DNA from: Turnera subulata
Lineage: Eukaryota; Streptophyta; Magnoliopsida; Malpighiales; Passifloraceae
Length of the DNA: 64,000 nt
Direction of reading: 5' to 3'
Assembly: GCA_028386065.3 (NCBI GenBank)
Contig: JAKUCV010002763.1
Span: 62,001 to 126,000, forward strand
Below, one piece after another: positions 3,147 through 30,022 of this stretch (position 1 is the stretch's first letter; each line of letters opens with the position of its first letter). Both the position numbers and the translations under genes were made by a program. The notes beneath the pieces were generated by a model. It did not search any database. It worked only from the letters and a program-made list of their open reading frames with translations, and had not been told where the DNA came from.

Positions 3147-4728
3147 TTATCGAGCTTTGATCTTAGAACAAATCATTGTGAACTTGAAGTTCAAAAGATG
3201 ATTCATGTGCAAAATATAGCAAATCAATTGCCAGACACATTTACTGATGTCAATAGAGTGACCAAATCTCATAGTCTAGCTGCAAATGCTCCTGTTAGAA
3301 TTGATGTCCCCGAAGGACAATCTAAGAATGCAAATGAGTCCAAAGTACACTAGAAGTGTGGCAGACCACTCGGTTCCAAAGATAAAAATCCTATACAGGG
3401 AAAAAAAGGAGCAAAAATAAAAGATGGCCCCAACAAAGTAATAAGCACTCCTGTAGAGGTTCAAATTAAAAATCCTCAAGAAGAGGAAAATCCTCCAGAA
3501 GAGGTTCCTGACACAATTAATAAAGTTCCAGAAGTAACTCAGAAATAAGTCAAAATGATGAGATCTCAATCAACTATATTATGTCAGGAATAAGGTGAAA
3601 TCGGCGTGAAATAACCGTCGACGTGATTTTTGCATATAATGTAGCAGTAAATAATATGGAAGGAAATGAGGATCATGAGACTAAATCAGTTGATGAATTT
3701 CGGAATAGAAATGATTGGCTAAAATGAAGAGACACAATTACGGCTGATTTAGACTCGCTCGTGAAGCGAAGAGTTTTTGGGCCTCTAGTCCCTACACCTG
3801 ATGGTGTAAAACCGGTCAGTTATAAATGGGTATTTGTGCAAAAAATAAACAAAAAAAATAAAATAGTGAGAGATAAATCATGGTTTGTTGCACAAGGATT
3901 ACCCGACGACCTAATATTGATTGTGAGGAGACATACTCTCCCGTGGTGGATGCAATTACTTTTCAGTATCCGATTAGTCTAGCAGTACATGAAAAACTAG
4001 AAATGCATCTAATGGATGTTGTTACAGCCTATCTCTATGGATCGATTAGTCATGACATATACTTGAGAATTCCTGAAGGATTCAAGTTGCCTGAAGCAAC
4101 TAATTCCCGGGGTATATAATCAATTAAACTAAAAGAATTTTTATATGGTTCAAAGCAATTTGGGTGTGTGTATATTTGGATGCAGGTCATTTATTTAATC
4201 CATATAAAGCTCAGACAGAAACAAGCTACTTCTTTACATTTTGAGAAATTCTTATATCATGGCGATCCACAAAACAAAGCCTAGTTGCTACCTCCTTGAT
4301 CATGCAGGGATTTTGTCAATACATGGAGCTAGTCAGGAATGTACTTGGCTAAGGTCAATAACACAGTAGGTCCGAGATTCAGATAACAAGAAAAAAATCC
4401 AAAAATGCATTATGAAGATACTGTGGCCTTCATTGCCCAACAGAAAGAAGAATACATTAAAAGTGATTGAACAAAGCACATATCACTAAAGTTCTTTTTT
4501 GAAAAACTAATTACCAAGGCACATCCAACTTGAACTTTTGAAAGGTTGATAAAGAAGAGTGGCTTGCAGTGACTTCGAGATATCAAAGGATGCCAAAATG
4601 AGGGGGAGTAGAATACGCACTACACTTTTTTTTCCTTCACCAAGTTTTTATCCCACTGGGTTTTTCTTGATAAGTTTTTTAACGAGGCAATTTCCCCTAA
4701 GCGTATTCTATTTCTAATACAATGACAT
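3147..4728 (+). pseudogene. Ty1/copia polyprotein relic, reverse transcriptase and RNase H part
   Basis: Continuation of the copia relic. After TTATC the reading resumes with LRTNHCELEVQKMIH, the linker before RT. RT text follows in two frames: 3761-3900 (SYKWVFVQKI) and 3920-4119 (YSPVVDAITF, MDVVTAYLYG, IPEGFKLPEA). The YVDD palm motif is absent: the reading jumps from about 4155 to RNase H (YLDAGHL near 4175, ATSLIMQGFCQYME region 4280-4330, FIAQQKEEYIKSD near 4430). The tail has the usual copia 3' UTR phrase around 4620-4700 (CCCACTGGGTTTTTC, AACGAGGCAA). Non-functional. Confidence 0.82.
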
Positions 4729-8608: not shown

Positions 8609-10214
8609 TGTTAGAACAATAGTCCTACGCTAGAGGGGGGGGGGGGGTGAATAGCATTTCTCGGATTAAAACAAAATAAGCAGGAAATAATTGCGGAATT
8701 GAAAGATTGAAGGACACAAGAATTTTTATACTGGTTCACACACAACTAATTTGTGGCTAATCCAGTCCTTCAAGTCTCACTTGAAGATTTCACTATCTAG
8801 TGTTAAGCTTACGGGTGCTTAACAAACCGTTACAACCTAGAGTTCTATTCCCAAGAAACTCTAATTTCTTGCTTGAAGATACCTCACTTCAAGACTTCTC
8901 ACACAAGAAGATATACCCTCTTCCTATGAATCTCAACAAGTGAACTAACCTCCCTTAAGGTGTATAACAATACAATCACTCAACAAAAGCTCTCACAAGA
9001 GTAGATATGAGTTACAGAATTTAAGCTAAAAAAGGCAACTCTCAAATCCTCAAAGGATATTGGCTCAATTAAGATTTGTAATGTATGTATGAATGAATGA
9101 TTGTAGAGAGTTGATTGCTTGAATCAGAGCTGAAAATGCACAATTTATAGCTCTGAAAAGTTATGGAGCTGTTTGAAATGCACTTAAGAAAACAGCTTTA
9201 AACAAGACATAGTGGGTGCTGAAAAGTTGTCAGAAATAACGGCTCAACATCGATGTTTAAAGGTACAACATCGATGTTTTGTCCAGTAAATTTGAATTAT
9301 TGGACTAACGGTAACTAAAACATCGATGTTCTCCAACCCAACATCGATGTTATTTTGATTATGTGTAAAATCCTTTAAAGCATCATGTGAAGAACATCGA
9401 TGTTTGAAAACCAACATCGATGTTATTTTGCTTCTGTGAAAATGAGATGAAAACTGATCATTGAAGAACATCGATGTTTAATTTACAACATCGATGTTAT
9501 TTTGCTTCTGTGAACAAGAGTTAAAGAACCGATTTGAAGAACATCGAAGTTCTAAAGCCAACATCGATGTTTTGCTCATGTAAAAAATATTTTCAAATGC
9601 AACGGTCATGAGAACATCATTGTTTAGGAAGCCAACATCGATGTTCTGAGCCTTTTGCCAATTTTTGGAAAATTATTTAAAGGCAGGAACATCGATGTTT
9701 AGATGACAACATCGATGTTATTTTGGCTCGGCAAAAATGATTTTAAGAATGACTTGAAAGAACATCGATGTTACAAATGGGAACATCGATGTTATGACTA
9801 ATTTTACAAGCAACGACCATTATAACATCGATGTTATAGATTCCAACATCGATGTTATTTGCCTACTGCCAATTTTGAAAAATTGTTTGAAAGCATAACA
9901 TCGATGTTTTAAAACTCAACATCGATGTTATTGACTCAAAAAATAGTTTGATGTTTGAAATATGTTTATGTGATGCATGAGCAAATTTTATCTTATTTTG
10001 AGACAATGTTCTAGAAGAGTTGAGTGTTATACCTTGTACATTTTATAAATCTAACTCTTCTTTCTTGCTCTTCTTTGCACTTCAATGCTTGATCATTTCT
10101 TTGATCACATTGCTTGAGCACTTCTTTGCTTGATTTCTTTTTGCTTCATCTTTGTCATGATCTTGAATTGGTTTGTCGATTATCAAAACCTGTAATGAAC
10201 CATGAGGTCTAACA
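8609..10214. mobile_element. Solo LTR, 1.61 kb, with palindrome array
   Basis: Starts TGTTAGAAC and ends GGTCTAACA, so the termini are inverted TGTTAG...CTAACA, flanked by GCTTA duplications. No coding region or primer-binding site is present. Near its left end is a run of 13 G (8635-8647). From 9246 to 9929 it contains ten pairs of the 12-bp palindrome AACATCGATGTT. It sits inside the SIRE-like LTR and interrupts that LTR's tandem repeats, so it is younger. An open minus-strand stretch at 9244-9471 is a by-product of the array, not a gene. Confidence 0.85.
9246..9929. repeat. Array 1: twenty AACATCGATGTT palindromes in ten pairs
   Basis: Copies start at 9246, 9267, 9319, 9340, 9393, 9413, 9467, 9487, 9540, 9560, 9613, 9634, 9688, 9708, 9761, 9782, 9824, 9845, 9897 and 9918. 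Eighteen are perfect; 9540 (AACATCGAAGTT) and 9613 (AACATCATTGTT) each have one substitution. Start-to-start spacing inside a pair is always 20 or 21 bp; pairs recur every 63-74 bp. Linkers vary, but many pairs are followed by ATTTTG(G)C and CTCGGCAAAAATG or CTACTGCCAATTTTG text. Confidence 0.95.
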
Positions 10215-12780: not shown

Positions 12781-13215
12781 TTGACTTATCATCGCAGCCC
12801 AAAAATCATGCCTAGTGATGCGTGTGAATGTGATTTATGCGACATCAAAAATTAAAGAAAGATGTCACCTGATTCATTTGCCAATTTGAGGAGGATTGCA
12901 CATGCCAAGCTCCAACCGAATCTTTTTGAACTGGTCCTCCTTCAATGGCTTTGTAAATATTCCAGCTAATTGATTCTCGATTTGGACAAAATCAAGCATT
13001 ACATCCTTCTTAAGCACATAATCTCAAGTAAAATGATGCCTAATTTCAATGTGTTTAATTCTTCAATGTTGAACCAGGTTCTTTGTAAGGTTTATGGCAC
13101 TTGAACTATCATATAAAATAAGCACATTATTATATGTAAGACCATAATGAAGCAAAGTTTGTTTCATTCAAAGTATTTGTGCACAACAAGAACCAACAGC
13201 CACTATAGTCAATAA
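12781..13215 (-). pseudogene. Copia RNase H C-terminal relic
   Basis: The minus strand from about 13210 reads GSCCAQILWMKQTLLHYGL, then NVLILYDSSSAINLTKN, IKHIEIRHHFT and LDFVQIENQLAGIFTKPL near 12950. These are the standard RNase H C-terminus blocks of copia polyproteins. The reading stops abruptly at about 13215, where gypsy RT sequence of opposite orientation begins, marking a breakpoint between two elements. Confidence 0.8.
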
Positions 13216-13228
13216 ACACCGCAAGGTA

Positions 13229-13826
13229 ATGGGATATACCATTGATGATCTGACAGGTATCAGTCCTAATCTTTGTATGCAATGCATTCTTTTGGAAGAA
13301 AACTACAAACCCATAATAGAACCACAGAGGAGACTGAATGAAAATATGAAGGAAGTGGTTAAAAAAGAAATTTTGAAGTTACTTGATGCCAGAATAATTT
13401 ATCCAATTTCAGATAGTCCTTGGGTTAGTGTAGTACATGTGGTGCCTAAAAAGGGAGGTATGACAGTAGTAAAGAATGAAAAAGAAGAACTCATACCAAT
13501 TAGGACTGTCACAGGTTGGAGGATGTGCATAGATTATAGAAAACTCAATAAGGCCACTAGAAAAGATCATTTTCCTTCGCCATTCATAGACCAGAAGTTA
13601 GAAAGACTTGTCAAGCACACACATTTTTGTTACCTAGATGGATACTCTGGATTTTTCCAGATCCCAATCCACCGAGGTGATCAGGAGAAAACAACATTTA
13701 CATGTCCCTATGGCACATTTGCATATAGGCGCATGCCATTCGGCCTGTACAATGCACCTGCCACCTTTCAGCGTTGCATGATGGCCATCTTCCATGACCT
13801 GATAGCATATAATGGAGGTATTTAAT
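13229..13826 (+). pseudogene. Athila-like gypsy reverse transcriptase, N-terminal half
   Basis: Open for 198 residues. Blocks typical of Athila/Tat RT are clear: LLEENYKPIIEPQRRLNENM, KKEILKLLDARIIYPISDS, VVPKKGGMTVV, TVTGWRMCIDYRKLNKATRK, CYLDGYSGFFQIPIH, TTFTCPYGTFAYRRMPFGL and NAPATFQRCM. The element has no 5' LTR, gag or protease here because it begins at the 13216 breakpoint. The frame ends at a stop near 13826, where the catalytic FMDD box would follow; the next frame overlaps by 14 bases. Confidence 0.9.
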
Positions 13827-14423
13827 GAAAATGACTTCTCTGTTTATGGCACTTCTTTCGATCTTTGTTTGGCTAACCTTAAAACAGTGCTTGAACGGTG
13901 TGAGGCTGTGAACCTGGTACTAAACTGGGAAAAATGCCATTTTATAGTTACAGAAGGTATTGTACTTGGACATAAAATCTCAGGACGAGGTATAGAAGTG
14001 GATGAAGCTAAGATTGATGTTATTGAAAAACTTCCACCTCCAACCACTGTTAAGGCAATTCGGGCTTTTCTTGGTCATGCAGGCTTTTACAGGCGCTTTA
14101 TTAAGGATTTTTCAAAGATTGCAAAACCTTTGACAAATCTTCTTAGTAAGGACGTCGAATTTGTATTTGATGATTCTTGTTTGAATGCATTTAACAGGAT
14201 TGAGGCCTCATTGACCGCAGGCCCAATCTTCCAGCCCCAAGATTGGAGTCAGCCCTTTGAAATCATGTGTGATGCAAGCGACCATGCAGTAGGGGCTGTG
14301 TTGGGGCAGAGAAAAGACAACAAACTTCATGCCGTATACTATGCAAGTCGCACTCTGGATGAAGCACAGATCAATTATGCCACAACTGAGAAAGAGCTTC
14401 TTGTAGTGGTCTTCGCAATTTGA
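13812..14423 (+). pseudogene. Athila-like gypsy RT C-terminal half and RNase H start
   Basis: Continues the RT in a shifted frame. Where the active site should read VF-M-D-D-FSV, this copy reads MEVFNENDFSVYG, so the paired catalytic aspartates are lost. After it come NWEKCHFIVTEGIVLGHKIS, FLGHAGFYRRFIKDFSKI and, from about 14250, RNase H (FEIMCDASDHAVGAVLGQR, YASRTLDEAQINYATTEKE). The frame stops at 14421-14423 with TGA where the family has CGA (arginine) before [10 protein letters not shown]. Confidence 0.9.
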
Positions 14424-14633
14424 AAATTTCGAGCATACTTGCTAGGGTCTAAGATCATCATCCATACTGACCATTCGGCATTGAAATACTTGTTGATGAA
14501 GAAGGAAACCAAGCCAGGACTTCTTAGGTGGATCCTACAACTCCAAGGATTTGACCTGGAGATTCGAGACAAGAAAGGCATAGAGAATGTGGTGGCTGGC
14601 CATCTGTCCAGACTGCCACATACCAAGTGAGCA
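14424..14633 (+). pseudogene. Athila-like gypsy RNase H C-terminus
   Basis: Same frame as the preceding piece after the TGA. Reads [40 protein letters not shown] and [20 protein letters not shown], the end of gypsy RNase H and the start of the connection to integrase. The frame ends near 14630 and integrase continues in another frame. Confidence 0.85.
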
Positions 14634-15993
14634 CATGCCAATTGATGATCGTCTCCCAGATGACAGCCTCATCGCAACAATTCACAGTGTCAGTCATAGA
14701 CTGATGCCATGGTACGCAGAAATTGTCAATTTCTTGGCCTGTGGAGCTCTTCCACCAGATCTTAGCTATTCACAGCGAAAGAAGTTCTTCTATAACATGA
14801 AGAACTACCTCTGGGATGAGCCCCTATTGTTTAGAACATGCAGAGATGGTATAATCAGACGGTGCATTCCTGAGGAGGAGGTAGAACAAGTTCTGCATAG
14901 TTGCCACAATACACAGTACGGGAGACGCCATGGTGCAACCAGAATAGCATCCAAGGTATTGCAAGCTGGTCTTTATTGGCCTACCCTATTTAAGGATGCA
15001 CGCAATTGGGTAGTGACATGCAAGGAGTGCCAGCGCATAGGGAACATCTCAAGAAGACAGAAAATGCCACAACAAGCAATTTTGGAAGTGGAGCTATTCG
15101 ATGTTTGGGGAATAGACTTCATGGGACCATTCCCAAGTTCTTATGGGAACAATTTTTTCTTGGTGGCTATTGACTATGTCTCTAAATGGGTGGAGGCCAT
15201 TGCCTCCCCGACCAATGATGCCAAGACAGTGACAAAGTTCCTAAAAAAACACATCTTCACTAGGTTTGGCACCCCAAGAGCAATAATTAGTGCTGGAAGA
15301 ACCCATTTTTGCAACCGCCAGTTTGAAGCTCTCCTAAAAAAGTATGGGATCAGACACAAAGTAGCCACTCGCTACCATCCTCAAACAAGTGGCCAAGTGA
15401 AGGTGACTAACAGAGGAATCAAACAGATCCTAGAGAAGACAGTAGGACCATCACGCAAGGACTGGGAAGCAAAACTCGTTGATGCTCTGTGGGCATACCG
15501 CACAGCCTACAAGGCACCCATAGGCACCACCCCATACCACCTTGTATTTAGGAAAGCCTGTCATTTGCCTGTGGAGCTTGAGCATAAGGCATATTGGGCT
15601 ATTAAAGCTCTGAACTTTGACACACAGGCTATAGGAGAACAGAGGCTGTTGCAATTGAATGAGCTGGACGAGCTGAGGTCGTATGCATATGAAAATGCAA
15701 AATTGTACAAGGAGAGAACAAAGAAGTGGCATGACAGCAGGATATAGCCTCGAAAATTCAAAGAAGGAGATCAAGTCCTCCTCTACAACTCTCGCCTGAA
15801 GCTCTTCCCTGCAAAGCTTCGATCAAGATGGTCTGGCCCCATCACAATGTCATGTTGTTACCCTCATGGGGCTGTGGAAATCTATAATGAGAAGACACAA
15901 CCATTCAAGGTTAATAGGCACAGACTGAAGCTGTATCACACAAGGACCGATGAGTATCAGGAGACTCAGGTGCTCCATGATCCACCTCCCACC
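14634..15993 (+). pseudogene. Athila-like gypsy integrase
   Basis: Open from about 14587 to 15747. The HHCC zinc domain is at about 14895-15040 ([32 protein letters not shown]). The first catalytic Asp survives in [16 protein letters not shown]. The second is replaced: [11 protein letters not shown] where the family has SDGG. The catalytic Glu is also replaced: SGQVKVTNR where the family has VE. A TAG at 15745 interrupts the C-terminal tail, which resumes as [20 protein letters not shown] and ends near 15993. The enzyme is dead on two catalytic positions. Confidence 0.9.
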
Positions 15994-21815: not shown

Positions 21816-23340
21816 TGTTAGTGAAATATGCCCAAAAGCCAATCATGGATGATTATTTGTAGTCATGTATACGCATTAATGTTATTCCAATAAGTATCGT
21901 TTATGAGATAAACGCTTGCACATACTTATAACCCTAGAATTTTTCATAATCTTAAATTGTCCCTAGTCGATTATTATTATGGATGGGTTGTAATAATAAA
22001 TTAAGACTAGCGTATGTTGAGAATTGCATATATGATATGAATTCTACATACGGGTACAAGTTAGAGAACTTGTGGACTAGACCGACCCACATAAGAACGC
22101 TACATGGAACGTTATATGATTGTCATTAGTGGCTCTTATATGAATTGTCCTTAGACCTGTGATCATTAAGGTTCCCAACATATGAGTCGTATACTTTGAT
22201 GTTACTCTTGGCTATTTCGTAAATGAGTAGAATTAGTGTAATAATTGGGTATACGATAAGTGTGTAGTGGGTTTTGTATGATCCAGAGGGTGTTCGTCCA
22301 ACCCATATAAAGGGTATATTATCGGATGGTTTCTTGATAGAGTTGAACTGTAAATGCACGGCCGTGCTCGGATTATGATATGTGATATCGTTAGTATCCG
22401 TTTTACACAATTAACTCGAGGATCAAGAAACCGAGATTAAACATATACGAGATTGACATATTCCATGTCTCGGGTTTAATCTTGATAATCGGACGAAGGG
22501 ACGATGACATGTTTGCGAGGCATATGAATCAGTACTGATCTTGCCGTTCGGGTAGCAATGATGTGTTGCTAGACGCCGCTCTTTGCTTATAATTGTAAAA
22601 TGAGATTTTACAATTATTGCTGGACGTTACAAGTGCCTACAGGGTCACACACATAGAGCCGTTGACTCTAGCAGGTGGTTGAACCGTGGTTGGACCATGG
22701 TTCGACCGGGTGTGGTTGGACCGTGGTTGGACCGTGGTTGAACAAGGGTTGTTTTGGTACAATAATGATCTGAATTATTGACCAGAGTTAGTGCTATGGT
22801 GGTGTGTTATCTAATTATGCATTAGTGGAGACAAGATAATGAGGATCATTGTCTTTGGGGCCTAGTGTTGGCCATTATGCCTTATCACTTATGCATTATG
22901 GAAAAGGAAGGTAGGGCACTTGTGTGAGCTGATTACATTCTTGCTCTTCTCTAGCTTGCTTGAGTTTTCAGACTTGAGAGCTTCAGGAGATACACACATC
23001 ACCCTCTTCCTCTTTGAGAAAGAAAAGAGACCATAACACCACACAGCTCCCGAAAATCCGCAGCTAGCACCGCGTTACGGGAGAGCTCGGGTTGGAGATC
23101 ATGAGACGATTTCCGACCAGCAGTCACGGTTTGTGTGGATACCGTAGAGGAGCGAGGTTTTCGTCTGGCTCTTACTGATTCAGCATCTACAGTTGGGTGA
23201 AAGACCTCAACCGAACCAGGTATGTTAAAATTCTTATAACTCGGTTTAGCTATCTTCACTTGGATCCTCCATGTGTATCCGGTTTTCCGCTGTGTTTATG
23301 TTTGCATTTGAGTATCAATTGCATGTCCCGGATACTTACA
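21816..23340 (+). repeat. 5' LTR of the 8.2-kb copia
   Basis: Starts TGTTAGTGAAATATGCCC and ends CCCGGATACTTACA. Near 22675-22745 it contains a short run of GTGGTTGGACC-type repeats (six diverged units). A matching copy lies at 28498-30022. Confidence 0.92.
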
Positions 23341-23341
23341 G

Positions 23342-23354
23342 TGGTAGCGGAGCC
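23342..23354 (+). other. Primer-binding site of the 8.2-kb copia
   Basis: TGGTAGCGGAGCC begins two bases after the 5' LTR end, resembling the initiator methionine tRNA site of plant copia elements. The same string follows the copia LTR at 33648 and, on the minus strand, that at 52571. Confidence 0.8.
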
Positions 23355-23790
23355 ACCTTGTAAAGTTCTAAACCGAATTATATGTGCATATGTGTTATAT
23401 GCCATGTTGATTGTGTATTGATATGATTATATGATATGGTATGAACATGCTAGTATATGTGATATGCTAGGTTCATTTAGTATATGTGATATGCTAGGCT
23501 CATTTTGGTATATATGATATGCTAAATTTCTTGTGTACATGTTGAAGTCCATTTTAGTATATGTGATATACTGAGACTTTTGTGCATATGAGATATGTTG
23601 GATTTCAATTTTGTAAACGTAATACATGATTGATGTTGTGGTTTTGTCAAAAGAGTTTTGACAACAAGAACTTGATTGGTATATGATATCAATCAAGGTG
23701 TTCTTGGCAGTAAGTCGAAGAGTTCGACTAAGAAAAATCGAGTGTCGGTTTGTGTATAGAACGATCGTCGTTCTAGTACAGCCAGGCCAC

Positions 23791-24383
23791 AACATCGATG
23801 TTGGTGCGACAAACATCGATGTTGGCATGATGTTTAGCCTTGGCCGAACCTTCATAACATCGATGTTGTGTGACCAACATCGATGTTCTGATGAAGGTTG
23901 GTCTTGGCCGAACGTTCATAACATCGATGTTGTGTGACCAACATAGATGTTCTCATGCAAAATTTTCAAAACATCGATGTTATTTGAGCTCGGCCAAATG
24001 GGTTTGAAGTTCCAGAACTCACATAACATCGATGTTGAAGGTTCCAACATCGATGTTCTTGAGTTCCAGAACGTCAACATCGATGTTGGAAGTTCCAACA
24101 TCGATGTTATAATGCTACTGCCAAAATCTTGAACTTTCGGAATTCTCAAAACATCGATGTTGAAAAGTTGAACATCGATGTTATTGAGCTACTGCCAAAT
24201 AGTTTGGAGTTCAAGTTACTCAAAACATCGATGTTGAAAAGTTGAACATCGATGTTATTGAGCTACTGCCAAATAGTTTGGAGTTCAAGTTACTCAAAAC
24301 ATTGATGTTGAAATATTGAACATCGATGTTCTTGAGGCTCGGCCAAATAGTTGGGAGAATCAGATTCTCAAAACATCGACGTG
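23791..24383. repeat. Array 2: AACATCGATGTT palindromes, mostly paired
   Basis: Copies start at 23791, 23812, 23856, 23876, 23920, 23940 (AACATAGATGTT), 23970 (unpaired), 24025, 24046, 24076, 24097, 24150, 24171, 24224, 24245, 24298 (AACATTGATGTT) and 24319; a broken copy AACATCGACGTG begins at 24372. Pair spacing is again 20-21 bp start to start. Flanking text such as TTATTGAGCTACTGCCAAATAG or TTTGAGCTCGGCCAAATG resembles the inter-pair text of the first array. About 74 bp from 24191 to 24264 is repeated almost exactly at 24265-24338. Confidence 0.95.
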
Positions 24384-24577
24384 CATATAATTTTTTGGCC
24401 GAGGCTCCGCCCCGAGCCCTGGCAAGGGCGCTGCCCCTTGACCCCGCCCGCTAACTGGCTAGCGGGACCGCCATGCTGCCTCTGCGTAGCGGCTTATAAT
24501 GCATATGATGCATTGTTATTGTATATGAGATATATAATTTGTGAATTACATGCATGACATGTATGGATACAATTGTT

Positions 24578-24822
24578 GACAAGTATTCATCATTGCTTAG
24601 ATCAACATTTGGTAGGTTTTGCCAAAGCAAGGTGCCAATGTTTATCCTAGCAAGATGTGATGGCATAATTGTTATGCATGGAAACAATTATTAATATAAA
24701 TATTAAGTTCTTAGTTGCCTTCCATGGTAAGCACTCATCATTGCTTCGATCAACAAATGGTAGGTTTTGCTAAAGCAAGGTGCCTTTGTTTATCTTAGCA
24801 AGGTGCGAGTTGATAATTGTAA
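24578..24822 (+). repeat. Direct repeat in copia leader, two copies of about 95 bp
   Basis: The copies begin near 24578 and 24724 and share CATCATTGCTT(A/C)GATCAAC, GGTAGGTTTTGC(C/T)AAAGCAAGGTGCC, GTTTATC(C/T)TAGCAAG and ATAATTGT. Period is about 146 bp. Confidence 0.8.
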
Positions 24823-25173
24823 TATCTCGACTGCTTATTGTGGGTTTGGACTTAACTAAGTCATCTTAATAGAATTAAGGACTTAGAGGCAAGGGTTGAG
24901 TAATGTCTATGAGATAAATATGGACAAAGTGTTGTTCACTCAACTATCCAAGAGTTACATGAGATGTAATTGACAAGAGTTGTCTACCTAAATAACTATT
25001 GACATATGCGATCAACCAAAACTGACATATGTTGTAGTGAAATATGGATCTTGGCCTACTTATATAATTGTCTTGATTTATGTAGTAGGAGCACATTTAA
25101 TAGAATTCCTTGTTAAATGTATTTGTATGCATGACTCTTATTTGTGTGAGTTGATCATTGTTGTAGAGTATCC

Positions 25174-25620
25174 ATGGCTTTAAACACTAGCACATTGTCA
25201 CTGCGATCGGTCCTTGAGAAGGAAAAGTTAAACGGGAATAACTTCCTAAAATGGTATCGTAATTTAAGGATAGTCCTCAAACAAGAAAAGAAATTGTATG
25301 TCCACGAAGGGCTTGTTCCAAAGGAACCGTCGCCTAGTGCTTCTAGGGCAGGAAGGGATGCTTAGTAGAAGCATCTTGATGATGCATTGGTTGCATCATG
25401 CCTTAAGCTTATAACCATGGACTCTGAGCTTCAGAAGCAACATGAGTAATTGGGGGCATTCGATGTGATCGAACACCTGAGAGGTATGAGACCTCTAAAG
25501 CATTATTCCATTGCAAGATAGCTGGCCATTGGAAACTAAACTGCCCTGTTTATCTTGAAGAGGTAAAGAAGCAGAAGGGAAGTAAGACTTCTGCTTCAGG
25601 TATTTTCGTTATAGAACCTA
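25174..25620 (+). pseudogene. Copia gag, internally deleted
   Basis: Starts ATG at 25174: MALNTSTLSLRSVLEKEKLN, NGNNFLKWYRNLRIVLKQEK, matching the N-terminus of copia gag. TAG at 25363 follows RAGRDA, then KHLDDALVASCLKLITMDSE and a stop near 25449. The reading then jumps to GHWKLNCPVYLEEVKK near 25530, which normally follows the zinc knuckle; most of UBN2 and the first half of the knuckle are missing. A productive Gag is therefore not encoded. Confidence 0.85.
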
Positions 25621-26447
25621 ATATCTCTATCTCAGCATCAAGGATTTTAGATACCGGATGTGGTTCTCACATTTGTGTAAATGTGCAGGAACTAAGAAAG
25701 AGTGGGAGATTGGCTAAGGGTAAGATAGACCTACGTGTGGGAAATGGAGCAACAGTTGCTGCATTAGCCGTAGGAACTTACTATCTATCCTTACCTAGTG
25801 GTTTAGTTTTGGAACTAGACGATTACTATTATGTACCAACCATTTGCAGGAATCTGATTTCTGTATCTTGTCTTGACAAGAAAGGATTTTCATTCGTAAT
25901 AAAGGACGATTGTTGTTCCATTTATTTCAATGATGTTTATTTTGGTGGTGCATATTTGAGCAATGGTTTGTATGTTCTAAACCTAGAAACCGCAATCTAT
26001 AACGTTAACACGAAGAAGGTTAGAACGAATGATTCCAATGAAACGCACCTTTGGCATTGTCGTTTAGGCCATATAAACGAGACTCGTATATCTAAACTCC
26101 ATAAATATGGACTTTTAGACTCATTTGGTTATGAATCGTTTCAGACGTGTGAGTCGTGTTTGTTAGGCAATATGACGAAGGCTCCTTTTACCGGTAACGG
26201 TGAAAGAGCATCGGACTTGTTAGGTCTTATACATAGTGATGTATGTGGACCTATGTCTACACAGGCTAGAGGTGGTTTTTCATTCTTCATTACATTTACT
26301 AATGATTTCAGTAGATATGGCTATGTGTATCTAATGAGACACAAGTCAGAATCCTTTGAAAAGTTCAAAGAATTCAAGAATGAAGTACAGAATCAACTCG
26401 GTAAAAGTATTAAAATGCTTCGATCAGATCGAGGAGGTAATACTTAG
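25621..26447 (+). pseudogene. Copia protease and integrase, 5' part
   Basis: Open from before 25683 to a TAG at 26445. Protease active site is intact as ILDTGCGSH near 25650. Then VPTICRNLISVSCLDKKGFS, GAG-pre-integrase with zinc ligands (HLWHCRLGH, CESCLLGNM; 26046-26175), and the integrase core (IHSDVCGPMS, FFITFTNDFSRYGYVYLM). The second catalytic Asp is in LRSDRGG; the frame stops immediately after, where the family continues GEYLS. Confidence 0.9.
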
Positions 26448-27153
26448 GCCGAGAATTCCTTGATCATCTAAAGGAGTGTGGTATAGTATCACAGCACACT
26501 CCTCCGGGTACGCCTCAATGGAATGGTGTATCCGAAAGGAGGAATAGAACCTTGCTAGACATGGTTTGTTTGATGATGAGTCAAGCTGATCTTCCTCCTT
26601 CATTTTGGGGACATGCATTATTGAGTGCTACTTTTACACTTAACCGTGTTCCATCAAAATCCGTCGAAAAGACACCATATGAGATATGGACTGGGAAGCG
26701 TCCCAATTTGTCTTTTATGAGAATTTGGGGTTGTGAGGCTTACGTGAGACGTGAAGCATCACATAAACTCGGCCCTAAATCCGACAAGTGCCTCTTTGTA
26801 GGATACCCTAAGGAAACGAAAGGGTATTATTTCTATAATCCTTTAGAGCACAAAGTGTTTGTGGCTCGGACTACTATTTTTCTAGAAAGGGAATTTATTT
26901 CTAGAAGAATCAGTGGGAGGAAAGTAGAACTCGAAGAAGTTCGAGAGATAGAGGCTGAGATGGAACAAGGGCAGGAACCACAAGAAGTTGTGGATGAGAT
27001 TTCTGTGCCTGTAACACATGAACCGCGTAGGTCGGATAGGACTCGGTATGAGCCTAAGAGATATGGATTTCTCATGACTCATACTGGAGACGTGAGCCCA
27101 CTTCCTATCAGCAGGCCATTACGGGTCAAGACTCTGAGAAGTGGCTTGAGGCC
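26448..27153 (+). pseudogene. Copia integrase C-terminal part and RT linker
   Basis: After the stop the sequence continues in a shifted frame: EFLDHLKECG-like text, HTPPGTPQWNGVSERRNRTL (third catalytic residue region, 26500-26550), then an open stretch 26552-27157 with MMSQADLPPSFWGHALLSAT, NRVPSKSVEKTPYEIWTGKR and the linker with an acidic run ending RRSDRTRYEPKRYGFL. A short shift near 27110-27150 leads to the RT. Confidence 0.88.
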
Positions 27154-28274
27154 ATGAATTCGGAAATGGAATCCATGTACCAAAACAAGGTATGGACCTT
27201 GGTTGATCCACCTGAAGGGGTAAAACCCATAGGGTGCAAGTGGGTCTTTAAGAGAAAGACCGACATGGATGGTAATGTGATTACCTATAAAGGGCGATTG
27301 GTTGCGAAAGGTTTCAAGCAAGTTCATGGTATTGACTATGATGAAACTTTCTCACCAGTTGCCATGGTTAAATCCATCCGGATTCTATTGGCTATAGCTG
27401 CATACCATGATCATATGAGATATGACAAATGGATGTCAAAACCGCTTTTCTTAACGGAAATTTTGGAGGATGTGTACTTGACACAACCTGAAGGTTTTGT
27501 CGATCCAAAGTATGCTAATATGGTATGCAAGTTGCAGAGATCCATTTATGGATTGAAGCAAGCTTCTAGGAGTTGGAATCTTCGTTTTAATGATGTAATC
27601 AAAGAGTTTGGTTTCATCAAGAACGAAGATAAACCAAGTGTTTACAAGAAGGTTAGTGGGAGCACCATTGTTTTCTTGTTGTTGTATGTTGACGACATCT
27701 TGCTCATTGGGAATGACATTCCGACACTACAGTCCGTAAAGACTTGGTTAGGAAAGAATTTATTGATGAAGGACTTAGGAGAAGCTGCCTAAGTGGTGGG
27801 TATAAAGATCTATAGAGATAGATCCAAAAGGCTTCTCGGGCTAAGTCAAAGTACGTATATTGACAAGGTGCTAAAGAGGTTTAGCATGCAAGATTCCAAG
27901 AAAGGATTCTTGCCCTTGTCACATAGCATATCTCTCTCAAAGAATCAATGCCCTAATACGACTAAGGAGAGAGAGAGCGGAAGAGTTAGATTCCTTTTGC
28001 TTTGGGAATAGGATCTATCATGTATGCCATGTTATGTACTAGACCGGATGTCGCTTATGCTTTGAGTGTCACAAGCAGATACCAAGCTGATCCCAGTGAG
28101 TGTCACTGGACAGCAGTAAAGAACATCCTTAAGTACTTGAGAAGGACTAAGGATGCATTCCTGGTTTACGAAAGCGTGGGTGAGCTCGTTGTAAAGGGTT
28201 ACACCGATGCTAGCTTCCAAACCGATAGGGATGATTTTAGATCACAGTCAGGTTATGTGTTTTTGTCTTGGAGG
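27154..28274 (+). pseudogene. Copia reverse transcriptase and RNase H, 5' part
   Basis: RT is open from 27154 to a TAA at 27790: VDPPEGVKPIGCKWVFKRKT, AKGFKQVHGIDYDETFSPVA, YGLKQASRSW and the intact catalytic box LLLYVDDILLIGND (about 27680-27720). Position MDVKTAFL-type reads MSKPLFLTEILEDVYL, so that aspartate is not preserved. After the TAA, KIYRDRSKRLLGLSQSTYID continues in frame to about 28000, then shifts to YAMLCTRPDVAYALS. RNase H begins GYTDASFQTDRDD and is cut at 28274. Confidence 0.88.
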
Positions 28275-28483
28275 TGGTAATGTGTGCTGGAAGAGTTCCA
28301 AGCAAGGTACTGTATGCTGGAAGAGTTCCAAGCAAGAGACAGTAGCCGACTCTACAACTCAAGCTGTGTATAGTTCCTTTTGGGAACAAAGTAGGAGATC
28401 TATTGTCTAATCTTCTCACGCAACGGAAGCATGATGGTCATGATAAATCCACATATATGAGATATATGGATGATTGGCTTTAG
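28275..28483 (+). pseudogene. Copia RNase H end with short tandem duplication
   Basis: Remains of RNase H (VCWKSSKQ.TVADSTTQA). GCTGGAAGAGTTCCAAGCAA occurs twice with a 30-bp period (about 28285-28304 and 28315-28334), a duplication within the domain. Most of the RNase H C-terminus is deleted; the reading goes almost directly to the purine tract near 28484-28495. Confidence 0.8.
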
Positions 28484-28497
28484 TGCAAGTGCGAGAT

Positions 28498-30022
28498 TGT
28501 TAGTGAAATATGCCCAAAAGCCAATCATGGATGATTATTTGTAGTCATGTATACGCATTAATGTTATTCCAATAAGTATCGTTTATGAGATAAACGCTTG
28601 CACATACTTATAACCCTAGAATATTTCGTATTCTTAAATTGTCCCTAGTCGATTATTATTATGGATGGGTTGTAATAATAAATTAAGACTAGCGTATGTT
28701 GAGAATTGCATATGTGATATGAATTCTACATACGGGTACAAGTTAGAGAATTTGTGGACTGGACCGACCCACATAAGAACGCTACATGGAACGTTATATG
28801 ATTGTCACTAGTGGTTCTTATATGAAGTGTGCTTAGACCTATGATCATCAAGGTTCCCAACATATGAGTCGTATACTTTGATGTTACTCTTGGCTATTTC
28901 GTAAATGAGTAGACTTAGTGTAATCATTGGGTATACGATAAGTGTGTAGTGGGTTTTGTATGATCCAGAGGGGGTTCGTCCAACCCATATAACGGGTATA
29001 TTATCGGATGGTTTCTTGATAGAGTTGAACTGTAAATGCACGGCCGTGCTCGGATTATGATATGTGATATCGTGAGTATCCGTTTTACACAGTTAACTCG
29101 AGGATCAAGAAACCGAGATTAAACATATACGAGATTGACATATTCCATGTCTCGTGTTTAATCTTGATAATCGTACGAAGGGACGATGACATGTTTGCGA
29201 GGCATATGAATCAGTACTGATCTTGTCGTTCGGGTAGCAATGATGAGTTGCTAGATGCCGCTCTTTGCTTATAATTGTAAAATGAAATTTTACAATTATT
29301 ACTGGACGTTACAAGTGCCTACAGGGTCACACACATAGAGCCATTGACTCTAGCTGGTGGTTGAACCGTGGTTGGACCATAGTTCGACCGGGTGTGGTTG
29401 GACCGTGGTTGGACCATGGTTGAACGAGGGTCGTTTTGGTACAATAATGATCTGAATTATTGACCAGAGTTAGTGCTATGGTGGTGTGTTATCTGATTAT
29501 GCATTAGTGGAGACAAGATAATGAGGATCATTGTCTTTGGGGCCTAGTGTTGGCCATTATGCCTTATCACTTATGCATTATGGAAAAGGAAGGTAGGGAA
29601 CTTGTGTGATCTGATTACACTCTTGCTCTTCTCTAGCTTGCTTGAGTTTTCAGACTTGAGAGCTTCAGGAGATACACACATCACCCTCTTCCTCTTTGAG
29701 AAAGAAAAGAGACCATAATACCACACAGCTCCCGGAAATCCGCAGCTAGCACCGCGTTACGGGAGAGCTCGGGTTGGACATCGTGAGACGATTTCCGACC
29801 ACAGTCACGGTTCGTGTGGATACCATAGAGGAGCGAGGTTTTCATCTGGCTCTTACTGATTCAGCATCTACAGTTGGGTGAAAGACCTCAACCGAACCAG
29901 GTATGTTAAAATTCTTATAACTCGGTTTAGCTATCTTCACTTGGATCCTCCATGTGTATCCGGTTTTCCGCTGTGTTTATGTTTGCATTTTGAGTGTCAA
30001 TTGCATGTCCCGGATACTTACA
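28498..30022 (+). repeat. 3' LTR of the 8.2-kb copia
   Basis: Begins TGTTAGTGAAATATGCCC right after GCAAGTGCGAGAT and ends CGGATACTTACA before GGACC. Same length as the left LTR, with about 3% difference counted by eye. Confidence 0.92.

Follow-up and report, generated by a model that had tools for sequence, protein, structure and literature searches.

A phased palindrome array in the LTR of a Sirevirus-type element and the leader of an unrelated copia element of Turnera subulata: a candidate enhancer module probably handed between retrotransposon families

In the available sections of Bousios et al. 2010 (PMC2829016), the repeated motif (RM) boxes of Sireviruses are called Sirevirus-specific and absent from classic elements. 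Like the module reported here, the RM boxes are palindromic, occur in high copy number, cluster in the upper half of the long terminal repeat (LTR) before the TATA box and have extra copies in the linker before an extra ORF. The closest published entry in those sections is the RM of Tnd-1, ACAATCGATTGT, an exception to the CGG-CCG signature that has the ATCGAT core in common with our AACATCGATGTT module; the signature is absent from the module, whose core is ATCGAT. The present module differs from the RM described in those sections in that it is also found in two other copia lineages and in one gypsy-gag element, where it lies in the leader or at the LTR 3' end, is inverted and has steps near helical multiples.

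Three other systems are comparable in part. The gypsy insulator of Drosophila, as described in the available text of PMC2374998, also consists of clustered protein sites (12 for Su(Hw)) within the 5' untranslated leader of an LTR element, but the site is another one and the binding protein has been identified, whereas for our module it is predicted. Tandem repeats are also found in the leaders (5'UTR) of Tirant and ZAM, and those of Tirant seem to have been captured from the host genome; however, the available text of PMC5408687 describes no module common to superfamilies. In maize, one palindrome is shared by two transposable element superfamilies of one genome, as the Sirevirus palindrome CACCGGAC-N3-GTCCGGTG is also abundant in Helitrons (PMC10760457). 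This is a different palindrome, and arrays moved into leaders or shared unit text are not described in the part of that paper available.

A stretch of 64,000 nucleotides from Turnera subulata (the window) was analyzed. When AACATCGATGTT was searched with up to two mismatches, 42 matches were found, compared with a mean of 3.68 and a maximum of 10 in 100 shuffles, and the exact copies were confined to two arrays, one in a solo LTR and the other in the leader of a copia element (Table 1). The preliminary description of this DNA had reported a second array of palindrome pairs, with the same 20-21 bp spacing, between the primer-binding site (PBS) and gag of the 8.2-kb copia. This observation is confirmed: the within-pair steps are 20-21 bp in both arrays, and the PBS-like site at 23342 and the gag ATG at 25174 place the 18 sites of the leader array between PBS and gag. 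The unit length is 73-75 bp in 8 of the 9 solo-LTR units; in the leader, counted without the single-site stretch 23970-24024, it is 74 bp in four of eight units and 50, 51, 64 and 65 bp in the others. The palindromes are 97.5 % and 96.4 % identical among themselves in the two arrays, and their 4-bp flanks 29-35 %.

Table 1 Features of the two array-bearing elements in the window
Feature	Position	Strand	Remarks
Solo LTR of Sirevirus-type element (family S)	8609..10214	-	1,606 bp; TSD GCTTA; array, TATA box and polyC in Sirevirus order on the minus strand
U3 array in solo LTR	9246..9929	-	20 AACATCGATGTT sites, 18 exact
Part of solo-LTR array collinear with the E2 leader	9708..9934	+	Collinear with 23970-24187
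5' LTR of host copia E2	21816..23340	+	1,525 bp; located by self-BLAST and flank reading; element flanked on either side by TSD GGACC
PBS-like TGGTAGCGGAGCC in E2	23342..23354	+	After the CA end of the LTR
E2 leader array	23791..24383	+	18 AACATCGATGTT sites, 15 exact; mostly pairs 20/21 bp apart
Four-pair block of E2 leader	23970..24187	+	Collinear with solo LTR 9708-9934; 70 % identity, 93.3 bits
Broken gag-pol of E2	25174..28483	+	gag start, then gag_pre-integrase, SH3-like and RVT_2 pieces in several frames
3' LTR of host copia E2	28498..30022	+	K2P 0.0288 versus the 5' LTR

The copia in the window (copy E2 of family E) is 8,207 bp long and belongs to Ty1/copia by its RVT_2 match (PF07727, E 4.5e-55). 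The distance between its LTRs corresponds to about 1.1 My at an assumed rate of 1.3e-8. Three Sirevirus marks were looked for in E2, namely a polyC signal, the AGGGGGAG polypurine tract (PPT) and the CA/ATTGG junction, and none was found (0/3). Several other repeats were observed in the element. Boxes resembling GGTTNGACC and GGTTNAACC recur with a period of about 11 bp in its LTR (22675-22743) and form a second candidate regulatory array. In the leader, tandem 27-28-bp repeats around TATATGATATGCTAGG lie upstream of the palindrome array (23428-23524), a GC-rich stretch lies directly 3' of it (24394-24490), and a block of about 92 bp is duplicated at 24581-24820. The leader (23341-25170) also contains 73 ATGs, 23 of which are inside the array, so that gag could hardly be translated by scanning unless splicing or some other route is used.

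The array of family S is the 'repeated motif' of Sireviruses, placed in U3 ahead of the TATA box and found again in the linker before the extra ORF of one element. On the minus strand, the solo LTR has its 20 palindrome sites at 286-969 of 1,606 bp, as expected for RM boxes (at least eight copies) in the upper half of a Sirevirus LTR. A TATA box follows about 97 bp after the array (CTATAAATTG, TATA at 1066), and a C13 run ends 26 bp before the LTR end, where Sireviruses have polyC at about 21 bp from the 3' end. Two relatives from the same genome, L076 and L081, also have polyC and a TATA-type ATATAAATAG after the array, and their polyC-bearing LTR end reads on into CA/ATTGGTAGCGGAGC. From the Sirevirus order on the minus strand, together with the running of this LTR end into the PBS, we infer that the sense of the solo LTR is the window minus strand. 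The CA/ATTGG junction is present in both relatives, with TAGCGGAGC as PBS versus the published Sirevirus TATCAGAGC. The linker array was found in L078, a rearranged family S copy, at 3341-3789 upstream of a 374-aa ORF with PF20167, which is the linker position of Sirevirus RM boxes, and L082 is a possible second case by a weak match. No exact AGGGGGAG PPT was found in L078. The reverse transcriptase (RT) of family S (L086; PF07727, E 1.5e-77) belongs to Ty1/copia, and we take it to be Sirevirus-like in appearance. Remains of a Ty3/gypsy polymerase (RVT_1, RNase H and integrase) were also observed near the solo LTR, at 13151-15747 (+).

The earlier statement that the module sits in an LTR in one element and in a leader in the other therefore holds for both positions, with the correction that the LTR is a solo LTR on the minus strand. 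Due to this sense, the module is inverted between the Sirevirus-type element (antisense text, in U3) and the leader copia (sense text). As an observation only, the text direction from the predicted promoter outwards is the same in the solo LTR and in the E2 leader.

The inter-pair text of the two arrays is alike, as had been described beforehand: CTACTGCCAA and CTCGGC(C)AAA are present on the same strand in both. The best blastn match between the arrays (Table 1) spans 233 aligned columns on the plus strand, compared with 53.6 bits on the opposite strand; it is collinear across four pairs, one of its units being shortened at the same point in both arrays (steps of 42 and 30 bp). The array-only score of 84.2 exceeded the maximum of 77.0 from 1,200 shuffles of the spacers in which the palindromes stayed fixed, and with another aligner the observed score was reached by 0 of 300 spacer shuffles. 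The global mean spacer score was reached by 0 of 500 shuffles, and the local spacer scores, a weak signal, by 24, 55 and 17 of 500. An HMM of the LTR units scored the leader array above all 200 shuffles; for the leader-unit HMM on the LTR array, 32 of 200 shuffles reached the score and the other strand scored higher. Of the comparisons suggested in the preliminary description, the alignment of the two arrays gave a collinear block, and the tree of repeat units was without any supported branch. Outside the arrays, masked BLAST found no similarity between E2 and the solo-LTR element (best match E 0.19, obtained with solo-LTR limits 8618-10213; final limits 8609-10214). The hosts are thus as unlike as had been stated, and a common LTR or leader ancestry of the two around the array was rejected on this basis.

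The leader array is old and present throughout family E. Sampling covered 30 loci found via the upstream leader and 30 via the downstream leader, with the best 40 candidates scored per search; each set includes the window once, and L032 and L043 belong to a single element. The palindromes adjoin the leader in 28 of the 29 other upstream-leader loci, the exception (L024) ending with its contig, and are present in all 29 other downstream-leader loci, including L044, which was kept with the caveat that it has two palindromes only. In total, the array lies beside the leader in 57 of the 58 other loci fetched. Wherever the leader-array query matched in family E, its best strand was the element strand, and this includes subfamilies in which the LTR pieces mostly have 68-76 % identity. 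Against the solo-LTR array, the same strand was favoured by 27 of the 28 upstream loci with matches, which are related loci. The single exception in this comparison, L033, holds a second element and was kept with that caveat; L024 (contig end) and L034 (N-rich) had no value in the strand count. Presence at nearly all loci and a constant orientation in diverged subfamilies indicate an old family trait, not a late insertion.

In the plant's own genome (519 Mb), 31,022 exact pairs were found versus 15 for a reversed control pattern. Among the matches listed, 18 clusters were recognized (contigs C3 to C27), all inside LTR elements, although one (C15:37569, L082) was placed weakly. Eight are Sirevirus-type (in the LTR, or in the linker before the PF20167 ORF), eight belong to a third copia family, T, one to family E and one to the gypsy-gag element, G. 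Three of the eight listed T clusters are in L072, where one lies in a full T and the other two in a small T-like element that has diverged. L082, due to its weak match, and the N-rich L074 were kept with a caveat. No free satellite array was found among the 18 clusters from the matches listed, so an independent satellite, named beforehand as an alternative source, has no counterpart there. The suggested survey of carrier families thus extends the putative exchange beyond the two families first noted.

Family T is represented by L071, a copia some 5.8 kb long with an LTR of 869 bp, the PPT AGGGGGAG and the PBS ATTGGTAGCGGAGC; its RVT_2 match (PF07727, E 7.1e-91) places it in Ty1/copia. In the L071 LTR, a TATA-like box (at 291) precedes the array, which lies in sense orientation at about 500-830, and in the copies fetched the family T array lies at the LTR 3' end. 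The RT identities (E-S 35 %, E-T 40 %, S-T 49 %) separate three copia lineages. In G (L083), a single copy, a repeat of about 0.83 kb (94 %; more copies after) precedes the PBS core GGTAGCGGAGC at 989, and the array starts at 1094 in the leader. The ORF downstream of the array matches Retrotrans_gag (PF03732, 28.8 bits versus a cut-off of 24.1), and no polymerase domain was found in five ORFs scanned (L084). In E, T and G, the array is within the predicted transcribed leader and inverted relative to the Sirevirus (S) orientation.

Two side observations concern these elements. The PBS core GGTAGCGGAGC, not the Sirevirus-known GGTATCAGAGC, occurs at window position 23342 and in L071, L076, L081 and L083, which are members of all four families, as if the primer tRNA differed. 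The small T-like LTR element at L072:2734-5354 (C8) has an LTR of 745 bp and an internal region of about 1.2 kb, and its ORF 3842-4558 (minus strand) matches the DEK C-terminal domain (PF08766, E 2.4e-10), possibly a captured host gene.

Spacer shuffling was also applied to 12 arrays of the four families, with 300 shuffles per pair and a count of the shuffles reaching the same-strand score. For E2, the count was 0 of 300 against each of four T arrays and 0, 2, 0, 36 and 3 against five S arrays. For L075, it was 0 against the solo LTR and 1, 1, 1 and 14 against the other S arrays, and 2, 8, 0 and 0 against T. The solo LTR versus T gave 6, 223, 0 and 10, and the other S-T pairs 2 to 285. Comparisons with G gave 3, 18, 2, 29 and 45 for S, 12 and 4 for E, and 25, 133, 126 and 7 for T. 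In the pair E2-L071, the opposite strand was above all 300 shuffles too, and one block is collinear between E2 and the T-type array of L072, a shortened unit occupying the same place in both. In a test with 20 shuffles, all shuffles were beaten by 13 of 24 E-S and 17 of 24 E-T pairs but by 1 of 16 S-T pairs, so that the S-T text similarity is mostly at chance. Eight of the 24 E-S pairs scored higher inverted, including L067-L007 (69/93), L058-L076 (42/65) and L058-L007 (58/76); these are mostly in the distant E subfamilies L052, L058 and L067. The link to the Sirevirus text is clear for the window's own E subfamily; elsewhere, the text comparisons probably reflect more than one event, or drift.

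The steps between palindromes are mostly near multiples of 10.5 bp. They cluster at 20-21, 30-32, 43-44, 51-54 and 72 bp, the 43-44-bp steps being 1-2 bp off helical multiples. For the two arrays of the window, the best periods are 10.51 and 10.54 bp; shifts of the spacing classes by as much as 5 bp gave an equally good fit in 3 of 121 and 18 of 1,331 combinations, the observed one included. In 61 arrays with at least eight palindromes (window arrays included, smaller arrays dropped), the best period in a scan of 8-14 bp was 10.28-10.68 in all 61 and within 10.4-10.6 in 39, although these tests are not independent, since arrays of the same family are related and a few loci overlap. L079-L081 and L083 agree with the phasing.

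The solo-LTR array has retained CpG (observed/expected 1.3), in contrast to the remainder of its LTR, where CpG is depleted (0.25). The E2 LTR is not CpG-depleted (0.88), so the contrast is limited to the solo LTR. Palindrome conservation, CpG retention, phasing and the U3 site before the TATA box together point to binding of a dimeric host factor at the DNA level. We consider the module a portable, enhancer-like cis-regulatory array of host-factor sites that was handed between families, and we give this explanation as a whole a probability of roughly 0.6. In the module, units of mostly about 73.5 bp follow one another in tandem, and each holds two 12-bp AACATCGATGTT palindromes 20/21 bp apart and semi-conserved inter-pair text. 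Each palindrome would bind a dimeric host DNA-binding protein, which is the most likely function, and sites near one helix face would permit cooperative binding and so act as an enhancer for the LTR promoter. Enhancer action would explain why the module can lie on either side of the predicted start site and in both orientations. Common units would have passed between families, hence the shared unit text and the collinear blocks. RNAs of one family's members recombine within one particle, according to the available part of PMC12786077. For passage between families, the route may have been template switching between co-packaged RNAs, or recombination between nested copies.

Neither shared LTR or leader ancestry of the two elements nor, among the 18 clusters from the matches listed, a free satellite was found, and the text is shared on one strand and in a collinear block, so exchange between families, as first proposed, is better supported than two independent origins; the spacer text above all 1,200 shuffles and the four-pair block carry this conclusion. 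Judged from such sequence comparisons, transfer is well supported for E-S and E-T, and a transfer involving G has weak support. In the most inclusive form of the proposal, LTR retrotransposons of one plant genome, from different copia lineages and from both sides of the copia/gypsy divide, would exchange one palindromic enhancer module with helical phasing. One family would have it ahead of its promoter and others in their transcribed leaders, so that unrelated elements would answer to the same host factor. This form is tentative, and its chances are somewhat less than even.

Among the rival explanations, convergence is unlikely but ranks highest. Each family would have amplified the same host-factor site independently, with the factor complex dictating spacing and inter-pair text and GCC(A)AA serving as a further site. 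Selection would be expected to fix the palindrome and the spacing, and the flanks vary; the S-T and most S-G text is at or near chance, and palindromes that differ in sequence but are analogous occur in the Sireviruses of distant plants (PMC2829016, Table 3, in the part available). However, convergence does not readily account for the E2-solo LTR and E2-T similarity above all shuffles, for collinear multi-unit blocks that contain a shortened unit, or for the single strand favoured by 27 of 28 upstream family E loci, related as these loci are. A late insertion of a satellite or Sirevirus LTR fragment into this one E2 copy after its integration is very improbable. A Sirevirus-type LTR does adjoin family E gag-pol sequence at L073, but the leader array is without Sirevirus LTR flanks, free arrays are lacking among the 18 clusters from the matches listed, and the family-wide presence of palindromes beside the leader (28/29 upstream and 29/29 downstream other loci) contradicts it.

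The array may instead act in RNA, where each pair would form a 12-bp hairpin in the transcript for dimerisation, packaging, translation or small-RNA recognition; we regard this as less probable still than convergence. The leader array folds far better than shuffles (z -14.9, 0/20; five single pairs z -5.3 to -6.2), as paired palindromes must, it lies in the predicted transcribed leader of E, T and G, and maize Sirevirus palindromes are small-RNA hotspots in the part of the source available. On the other hand, the family S array is inverted in U3, upstream of the TATA box, the between-pair spacing is also near helical multiples, which a hairpin would not need, and the leader array puts its ATGs ahead of gag. 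In family E, outer-base changes covary between the two sites of a pair (outer stem p 1e-5), but the inner stem is without covariation (p 1.0) and the symmetry within sites covaries too (p 1e-14), all these values being inflated by relatedness; covariation therefore does not separate a DNA dyad from an RNA hairpin. No covariation signal was found in families S and T, and Rfam gave nothing at gathering score on 8500-30200. Improbable to a greater degree is an insulator or anti-silencing role, in which the sites would bind a host protein that keeps the element promoter insulated or unmethylated, like Su(Hw) in the 5'UTR of Drosophila gypsy. The layout with a site cluster in the leader is the same (12 sites in 340 bp in gypsy, according to the available text of PMC2374998), and the palindromes of the solo LTR retain CpG in an otherwise CpG-poor sequence; but in Sireviruses a U3 location beside the TATA box suits an activator equally, and the copia LTR is not CpG-depleted.

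A bacterial or phage link was rejected, as the six GTDB and IMG/VR loci are short repeats with a 21- or 22-bp step that look like coding repeats. In L003-L006 (Kiruna MAG) and L002 (Tannerella MAG), AACATCGATGTT or close variants recur every 21 bp and would read as NIDV-type peptide repeats, an apparently unrelated but striking coincidence. An RT search of viral contigs found no relative.

In the open-access literature searched, there was no report of a module exchanged between retrotransposon families. A search with the 12-mer AACATCGATGTT returned only unrelated papers (judged by title and start of abstract), and other searches found neither a plant factor with an ATCGAT site nor the polyC string. 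RM boxes are known in Sireviruses, and the new element is the same module in unrelated families of one genome. As far as sequence can tell, our results suggest that unrelated retrotransposon families in one plant genome share or swap a switch for the same host protein. Parts that control promoters would then be able to move from one retrotransposon family to another, and an entire group of elements may rely on a single host protein. From the phasing near 10.5 bp, a dimer bound to DNA is predicted, and the placements in U3, at the LTR 3' end and in the leader are natural variants of position and orientation for testing the function of the boxes.
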